This document shows, in pieces, positions 14,653 through 16,262 of a stretch of 56,579 nt of DNA. Origin of the DNA: Allomyces macrogynus ATCC 38327 (Eukaryota > Blastocladiomycota > Blastocladiomycetes > Blastocladiales > Blastocladiaceae); NCBI GenBank assembly GCA_000151295.1, contig GG745341.1, forward strand, positions 1,137,474-1,194,052. Direction: 5' to 3'. The stretch's first letter is position 1. The number at the start of each line of letters is the position of its first letter. The position numbers were made by a program, and so were the translations under genes. The notes below the pieces were generated by a model that worked only from the letters and a program-made list of their open reading frames with translations, was not told the DNA's origin and did not search any database.

Positions 14653-16262
14653 TCACGCGTCGACGCGAATGTCGGTGAGCGGCACGCTGGCGCCGCCGTT
14701 GGGCACTAGCGCGTCGGCCGGACCGCGCGGCGTCCATCCAGGGCCCGTGTAGGTGCGCTTGGTCGGATAGACGAACCCGTTGCCGAGCGGCGGGACGGGG
14801 ATCGGGAACAGCACGTAGTACCAGGGGCTAGGATTCCAAATCGCACGTCAGACAGCTGGCGTCACCGCTCTGAGGACAAAATGTGCACGTACTAGGCCGG
14901 CGAATTCAAGAAGACGCGCAGGTTTCCTTGCCACCCGAGATTGTACAGGTTATACCGCAAATCCTCCTCGTCACTCTCCGGATCGCTCTCGTCATCGGGC
15001 AATTCGCGGCGGTCCATCCACTCGAGCTGCGTCTGCGCCGTGAGCAGCAGGTAGACGTGCCACGCGGCCATGCCCGAGAGCACGAGCCCGAGAATCACGG
15101 CGATCATGTAGCAGAAGATGAACAGTTGCCGGTCGTAGTAGGCCGCGGGCCATTCGGCCATCATGTCGAGCGCCGTCGGGACGTAAGGCGCCGCAAGCAC
15201 CGAGAAGAGTAGGCACCCGACCGACAGGTAGACGAGGAACACGACAAAGTAGCGGTGGTTGTAGTGGCCGACGCAGTCTGCGGGAAGTGCGGGTGGGTCA
15301 ACGCTGCGCAAGAGGTGCGCGCTGGGAGCAGCAGCGGCGGGGACGTACTATTCAACCCTGGGGACATCAGTCAATGGATCAACGTGCGTCTGTTGGATAT
15401 GCGGATGCGTCGGTTCACCGCCAACGCCACGGGCGTGTGGGGGAGAAATGAAGACGTACATGGGCAGTCTGGATGGGATCGACGCAGCAGCGAGGACGTT
15501 GACAACGGGACGGATGGGTGGAGCGAAGGCTCAGTTAGAGGGTTCGTCGCGAAATGAGCAAAAACGGGCAAGAAGCACGGCGTACGGTGGTCCCTACGGC
15601 AGGCGAAAGAGTATAGGTCAGCGTGGACAACGGTGGAGAGCCAAGAAGAGGACTCGGCGTACATTTTCAAGACGCAGCGATCGCAGATACTGCAATGATG
15701 GCTGAAATGCGAACGGTCGGCCGTCAGCAACCGCACATCGAGGGACATGATCGAGATTGCATTTGCGAGAGCGCGCGCACCATCGCTCCGGCTTTGGCGA
15801 GCTGCATTTTCGGCACACGCGCATCGCGCTCTAGAATCGCGAGCCAAGGCGTTGGCATCCCATCGATCCGTTGCACACCGTCGGATCCAAACGCACCAGG
15901 GCCGCCTCGACCGACACCCTTGCCACGTCGTGAGCGTAACTGCGCGTCGTGACTGCCATGGCGTAGTTAAAGTAGAGGTCGACGACGAGCAGCGCGGACC
16001 CGGCGACTGTGGCGCCCCACACAGCGTGCGCCCACCACCGTCCCGTCTCCGGGTCCGGGCGGTAGTCCGGCAAAACCATGCCCAGGTGGATCATGGCGCA
16101 CGCGCCAATCAGGGCAATTGCCGCGACGATCAGAATCGGGCCCATGAGCCGCATCAAGACCTGCGCGACCACCATGGCGACAGGCTCAAGGGCAGCGCCG
16201 AGCTTCATGACGGGCGCTTCCAGAGCGCGCATCACCGATGCGGGTCGCGGCAGAATCGTCAT
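14653..16262 (-). CDS. DHHC-type protein S-palmitoyltransferase (ZDHHC16-like), catalytic core encoded by microexons
   Basis: Membrane enzyme that transfers palmitate to protein cysteines. Eight exons: 16262-15897, 15830-15781, 15701-15663, 15593-15586 (8 nt), 15468-15460 (9 nt), 15357-15349 (9 nt), 15277-14893 and 14827-14653. They total 347 codons with the stop. Every intron has GT...AG ends, with GTRCGY donors. Spliced, they restore the family core in order: [46 protein letters not shown]. The catalytic Cys codon lies in the first 9-nt exon. N-terminal hydrophobic segments (GPILIVAAIALIGACAMIHL; AGSALLVVDLYF) and two more after the core fit a four-pass topology. Downstream come LTAQTQLEWMD, a TTxE-like segment, and YNLGWQGNLRVFLNSP. 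The first intron donor has an alternative 24 nt upstream on the transcript. The core closely resembles ZDHHC16. Confidence 0.88.

Follow-up and report, generated by a model that had tools for sequence, protein, structure and literature searches.

We propose that the gene at 16262-14653 (minus strand) of the window, i.e. the whole stretch of 56,579 nucleotides of Allomyces macrogynus DNA that was analysed, encodes a working protein S-acyltransferase of the ZDHHC16 kind, with the catalytic core carried by three consecutive, constitutively included microexons of 8, 9 and 9 nt. Judged from the sequences compared below, the probability of this reading is put at about 0.85.

Gene structure and family assignment

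In the gene model built from the DNA, the gene consists of 8 exons coding for 346 residues and a stop codon, and over a span of 26 coding bases the active-site core is cut four times by an intron (Table 1). As the initial annotation had claimed, the three microexons are found in the sequence with AG before and GTACGY after each of them, and when joined to 15701-15663 and 15277-14893 they restore the DHHC family core. With microexons defined as exons of at most 15 nt between canonical GT-AG introns, the lengths (8, 9 and 9 nt) and the dinucleotides agree with the definition both here and in a duplicate of the gene described below. The two exons directly upstream of the run are also short.

Table 1. 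Exons and introns of the DHHC gene in the window
Feature	Position	Strand	Description
exon 1	15897..16262	-	366 nt; ATG at 16262; 91% identical to duplicate
intron 1	15831..15896	-	66 nt; GTGCGT..TAG; without yTnAy site
exon 2	15781..15830	-	50 nt; 16 residues and part of the following codon
intron 2	15702..15780	-	79 nt; GTGCGC..CAG; CTGAC 23 nt from 3' end
exon 3	15663..15701	-	39 nt; 12 residues and parts of the codons on either side
intron 3	15594..15662	-	69 nt; GTACGC..TAG; CTGAC 25 nt from 3' end in both copies
microexon 1 GGACCACC	15586..15593	-	8 nt; end of Met, Asp, His, base 1 of second His; duplicate 8/8
intron 4	15469..15585	-	117 nt; GTACGC..CAG; 67% identical to duplicate
microexon 2 ACTGCCCAT	15460..15468	-	9 nt; remainder of second His, catalytic Cys, Pro, base 1 of Trp; duplicate 9/9
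intron 5	15358..15459	-	102 nt; GTACGT..CAG
microexon 3 GGTTGAATA	15349..15357	-	9 nt; remainder of Trp, Leu, Asn, base 1 of Asn; duplicate GGCTGAATA, silent
intron 6	15278..15348	-	71 nt; GTACGT..CAG
exon 7	14893..15277	-	385 nt; opens by completing the Asn codon
intron 7	14828..14892	-	65 nt; GTACGT..TAG
exon 8	14653..14827	-	175 nt; includes the stop codon

The spliced product matches the Pfam DHHC profile (PF01529) at 3.7e-39 and 134.3 bits, against a curated cut-off of 28.7, over residues 125-249, and the match runs across the joints. The Asp-His-His-Cys stands within a Cys-rich domain, with CRKC upstream, the spliced protein aligns to solved DHHC20 structures, and hydrophobic stretches are visible by eye in the translation. 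Among the 120 listed of the 725 protein matches, every numbered ZDHHC name is ZDHHC16, the matches so named coming from animals and a chytrid, and the rest are unnamed or generic, with one unrelated name. The Allomyces gene has the Cys-rich domain and the core in common with the DHHC palmitoyltransferases of the ZDHHC16 type, and differs in the spread of the core over three microexons, the relatives being compared as proteins only.

The path through the microexons was enumerated in the 385-nt gap from exon 3 to exon 7, allowing at most 4 AG..GT microexons of at most 30 nt each, with a minimum intron length of 45 nt. The window copy offers 14 candidate AG..GT microexons of this size and 147 paths; 38 of the paths keep the frame and meet no stop over the short stretch tested, and a single one yields the core; the same enumeration in the duplicate gives 36 paths, with 9 open and 1 yielding the core. 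In dinucleotide shuffles of the window-copy gap, with the first and last 6 bases fixed and paths of at most 3 microexons, the string K.DHHC[PI][WFY]..NC[VI]G was reached by a microexon path in 0/114,349 shuffles, and the looser string DHHC..C[VI]G in 12/114,349.

The diverged duplicate

Upon search of the genome (G000; 54.0 Mb, 75 contigs), a second copy of the gene is found on contig C64, with 84% DNA identity across 1.65 kb. All eight exons recur there and are read in the same way, the frame being open over 347 codons as compared with 346 in the window copy. Between the two copies 46 of the 186 fourfold sites have changed, and the codon changes comprise 63 silent ones and 9 replacements. The sole change in the microexons (8/8, 9/9 and 8/9 identical) is the silent TTG/CTG, and introns 3, 4, 5 and 6 are 75, 67, 84 and 69% identical at ungapped positions. 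The comparison of the copies fits purifying selection on the three tiny exons. The microexon array is older than the duplication that produced both copies.

Two blocks are better kept between the copies than the remainder of their introns, namely the last 66 nt of intron 5 (15423-15358; 63/66 identical) and the first 37 nt of intron 3 (15662-15626; 34/37 identical). A row of 40 identical bases, as present in the end of intron 5, is expected in about 0.1% of trials (569 intron bases, 25% divergence). A splicing enhancer in this end of intron 5 was considered and set aside, because patchy gene conversion accounts for the block equally, a second pair of DHHC genes having near-identical intron patches. 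The well-kept blocks in introns 3 and 5 may reflect either gene conversion or splicing elements.

A tRNA-Leu(CAA) gene is present at 16577-16658 (-), just upstream of the DHHC gene, and its counterpart beside the duplicate is 82/82 identical. Elsewhere in the window, a second tRNA-Leu(CAA) gene lies at 31928-32009 (+), and tandem arrays of similar genes lie at 1861-8697 (-) and 48833-52518 (+), which by eye presumably encode alpha/beta hydrolase-like and NAD(P)-binding (NmrA-like) proteins, respectively.

Splicing of the microexons

It was pointed out in the initial annotation that each microexon is too short for normal exon definition. This is probably no obstacle, exon definition being probably not needed here: the seven introns are only 65-117 nt long, so that recognition across the intron is likelier. 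The spliceosome would then most likely pair the splice sites across each short intron, and the introns would most likely be removed one after another, an order that we infer. After one of two adjoining introns has left, the microexon would be a mere end of a longer exon. Constitutive inclusion of the microexons would give the full-length enzyme, while any skipped microexon, or most of the retained introns, would by calculation from the sequence give a dead protein.

As to the splice signals, GTACGY donors are present in 5/7 introns of each copy, and the hexamer has no clear enrichment over expectation in the approximately 117 kb scanned. Branch-point-like yTnAy sites occur in introns 2-7 of both copies and in intron 1 of neither; in the window copy, the nearest one within intron 4 is far from the 3' end, at 67 nt. 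A structured RNA clasping the splice sites was rejected on the ordinary folding energies (z of -1.29 and +0.84 in the two copies), and a search for RNA families in 14600-16700, with E up to 1, gave only the upstream tRNA and an opposite-strand match far below the gathering score. An introner-type origin was also rejected for introns 3, 4 and 5, which were used as queries. With very common words skipped, introns 3 and 5 match only themselves and the duplicate in the genome and intron 4 only itself, i.e. the three are single-copy apart from the duplicate.

An alternative to constitutive inclusion is a regulated switch, an on/off mechanism that had been suggested before; microexon inclusion would then vary, with life stage or nutrients, and so decide whether active enzyme is made. 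Two of the computed outcomes are as was said then and would suit such a switch: skipping of the 8-nt microexon 1 loses the frame, and skipping of the first 9-nt exon, microexon 2, gives DHRLNNC, with the catalytic Cys gone. Skipping of microexon 3, by contrast, does not merely shorten the loop; it gives DHHCPYCVG, with Tyr in place of Trp-Leu-Asn-Asn beside a Cys that we take to be the zinc-site Cys. With both 9-nt exons skipped, DHHCVGH is obtained, where the letters DHHC are kept by use of a downstream Cys. All skips lose the core, with 0/3 in-frame skip products keeping it, and the switch would therefore yield waste only. Upon retention of a single intron, an early stop results in 12/14 cases (7 introns in 2 copies), and in the window copy a retained intron 3 or 4 stays open but adds 23 or 39 residues, respectively, within the core. 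Since the skips destroy the core and the retentions stop early or insert into it, a productive switch is unlikely, with a splicing-dependent loss of product being possible. The well-kept end of intron 5 and start of intron 3 could also be counted in favour of the switch; however, these blocks are not specific, because similar patches of high intron identity are present in the second DHHC pair too. A further point in its favour is the switch-like microexon in the fungal Trichoderma virens Xlr2, reported in PMC11121469. With the complete core kept in the duplicate and in the public protein of A. arbusculus, we find the on/off switch unsupported and consider it improbable.

Public proteins of relatives

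The public protein of A. arbusculus (P0001, 97%), which stands for 3 sequences in the 90% protein clusters, has the complete core, and the core is present at the protein level in the Blastocladiella proteins P0003 and P0004. The A. javanicus protein P0002 (GGF32_002365) is deposited without the DHHC core. Apart from 5 differences among 68 residues, its string is reproduced from the window copy read out of frame, by a reading in which exon 2 starts 2 nt later, the joints of exon 2/exon 3, exon 3/microexon 1 and microexon 1/microexon 2 are kept, and a later intron 5 donor, GTGGCG, is followed by microexon 3 and exon 7 via the microexon 3/exon 7 joint. Because the string is reproduced by those joints, the predicted P0002 model appears to hold microexons 1 and 3 in the wrong frame. 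No public A. macrogynus model of the window gene is named among the 120 listed of the 725 matches, and a query with exons 7-8 for such a model gave 1 match, from Absidia, in a collection where the 90% clusters can hide entries.

It could be argued that a different splice path, such as the frame-shifted reading of the A. javanicus model, is the real one and that the protein is without DHHC, since P0002 is deposited so and the window copy, over the stretch examined, meets no stop when read in this way. Yet under this reading the duplicate has a stop in exon 3, the donor would have to be GTGGCG, and a core that is otherwise kept with silent changes only, and that is full in A. arbusculus, would be destroyed, so that we regard a different path as very improbable. 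That the gene is decaying, with the core broken and no enzyme produced, is hardly credible at all, since only the unusual architecture speaks for decay, against the open frames of both copies and the prevalence of silent over replacement changes. The reading with the core constitutively spliced from the three microexons is preferred over these.

Other DHHC genes and kinases in the genome

With 22/22 candidates scored, 19 matches to the DHHC profile are present in the genome, which we read by eye as 14 loci in 8 groups. A single frame holds the whole core in four of the groups (L001/L005, L002/L022, L007 and L008/L020). The other four have it cut, at a position different in each: these are the window pair, a C46/C66 pair, a C58/C61 pair with the cut within the Cys codon, and one C39 gene with the cut directly before Asp.

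In the C46/C66 gene (L059, G000:C46:544800-548200; L060, G000:C66:113500-116900), for which the relatives' public names read zdhhc15, the 7-nt microexon CCACTGC encodes the catalytic HHC, giving D-HHC-PW. It is the only AG..GT candidate of at most 30 nt and at least 40 nt from the gap ends in both copies, and its product is present in the public A. macrogynus ATCC 38327 protein AMAG_06618. The gene apparently has an upstream 10-nt microexon, CCCATTACAA, which would be visible as PITI in the same protein. The gene also led to a second public protein of that strain, AMAG_19761 (P0125), a model with the DHHC core garbled or partly missing. When the two proteins are compared with the G000 DNA in words of 8 residues, exact matches cover 372/379 residues of AMAG_06618 and 331/334 of AMAG_19761, the residues outside being the products of tiny exons, i.e. 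PITI and HHC in the former and CHC in the latter. The window therefore very probably comes from A. macrogynus; the genus Allomyces belongs to the Blastocladiomycota. As the C46/C66 copies are nearly identical at the microexon region, introns included, their agreement carries less weight than the agreement between the two copies of the window gene. On the reverse strand of L059 and L060, at about 1,350-2,130, the copies are near-identical including the introns, with diverged flanks; this patch is possibly due to patchy gene conversion. Runs of tiny exons had been called rare at the outset, and the run of three is itself unusual, but a second DHHC gene with 7-nt and apparently 10-nt microexons speaks against rarity.

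In the protein kinases (120/523 candidates scored, 162 matches, listed in part), no clear exon below 15 nt was seen in the gaps of the match table, read by eye, or in the 6 stretches inspected. In the kinase genes L053-L056 some catalytic-loop exons are, by eye, about 30 nt, which suggests that short exons at active sites extend beyond the DHHC genes.

Known microexon systems and origin of the run

Microexons, singly and in runs, have been described from other systems, and the Allomyces case is a striking further example. In plants, as described by Yu et al. 2022 (PMC8831610), conserved microexons of 1-15 nt lie within conserved protein motifs and are often misannotated, and a rice gene has two adjacent microexons of 5 and 12 nt that were validated. 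The Allomyces gene resembles these in having tiny exons in a conserved motif, and differs in having three consecutive ones, each below 10 nt, in a fungus and at catalytic residues. The coding region of schistosome micro-exon genes consists largely of short exons of 6-36 bp, which are symmetric and thought to create protein variants, according to PMC5825161; by contrast, the first microexon in Allomyces, with 8 nt, is not symmetric and the skips are destructive. In Fusarium CYP621A a conserved enzyme motif is rebuilt by a 1-nt exon, for which the abstract of PMC12940212 states SRA support, and this fungal microexon is required for the motif as in Allomyces, yet it is a single exon and not a run. 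The microexon of Trichoderma virens Xlr2 is fungal too, but there the regulated switch is reported in a transcription factor. A literature search coupling Allomyces macrogynus with microexon found none, most subscription papers being outside the search, and the matches for microexon with Blastocladiomycota or with palmitoyltransferase were judged from the listing to be unrelated.

As to the origin of the run, a survey (PMC8476143) puts the intron density of A. macrogynus at 1.30 per kb of coding sequence and the ancestral density for Chytridiomycota at 5.3. For 20-30 Mb of coding sequence, as assumed here, and uniform placement, the number of four-intron runs expected to fit within 26 nt is 0.16-0.24 per genome at the density of 1.30 and 42-63 at 5.3. 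Based on these counts, the four-intron run is unusual now, while no special mechanism would be needed if introns were once denser. Since intron loss is given in the same source as far commoner than gain in fungi, the retention of old introns is favoured; since the cut positions differ among the four DHHC groups, separate events are favoured. The array may be left over from an intron-rich ancestor, or it may have arisen by later intron gains.

Concluding remarks

The gene offers a natural test of the spliceosome against three consecutive exons that are seemingly too small for two splicing complexes at once, with the diverged duplicate having the same array as a built-in control. Public gene models can lose the active site of the enzyme, as in A. 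javanicus P0002, and because at least two DHHC genes in the genome have catalytic microexons, the enzyme count taken from gene models could be wrong.

Finally, we note a wider and quite doubtful idea, that several Allomyces enzymes have their catalytic codons in exons below 11 nt and that splicing efficiency could gate protein palmitoylation across the life cycle. If this were true, active enzyme would arise only from perfectly spliced transcripts, in a fungus whose introns are short and which would not need exon definition. If the inclusion of the microexons were regulated, it would constitute a new layer of control for protein palmitoylation.
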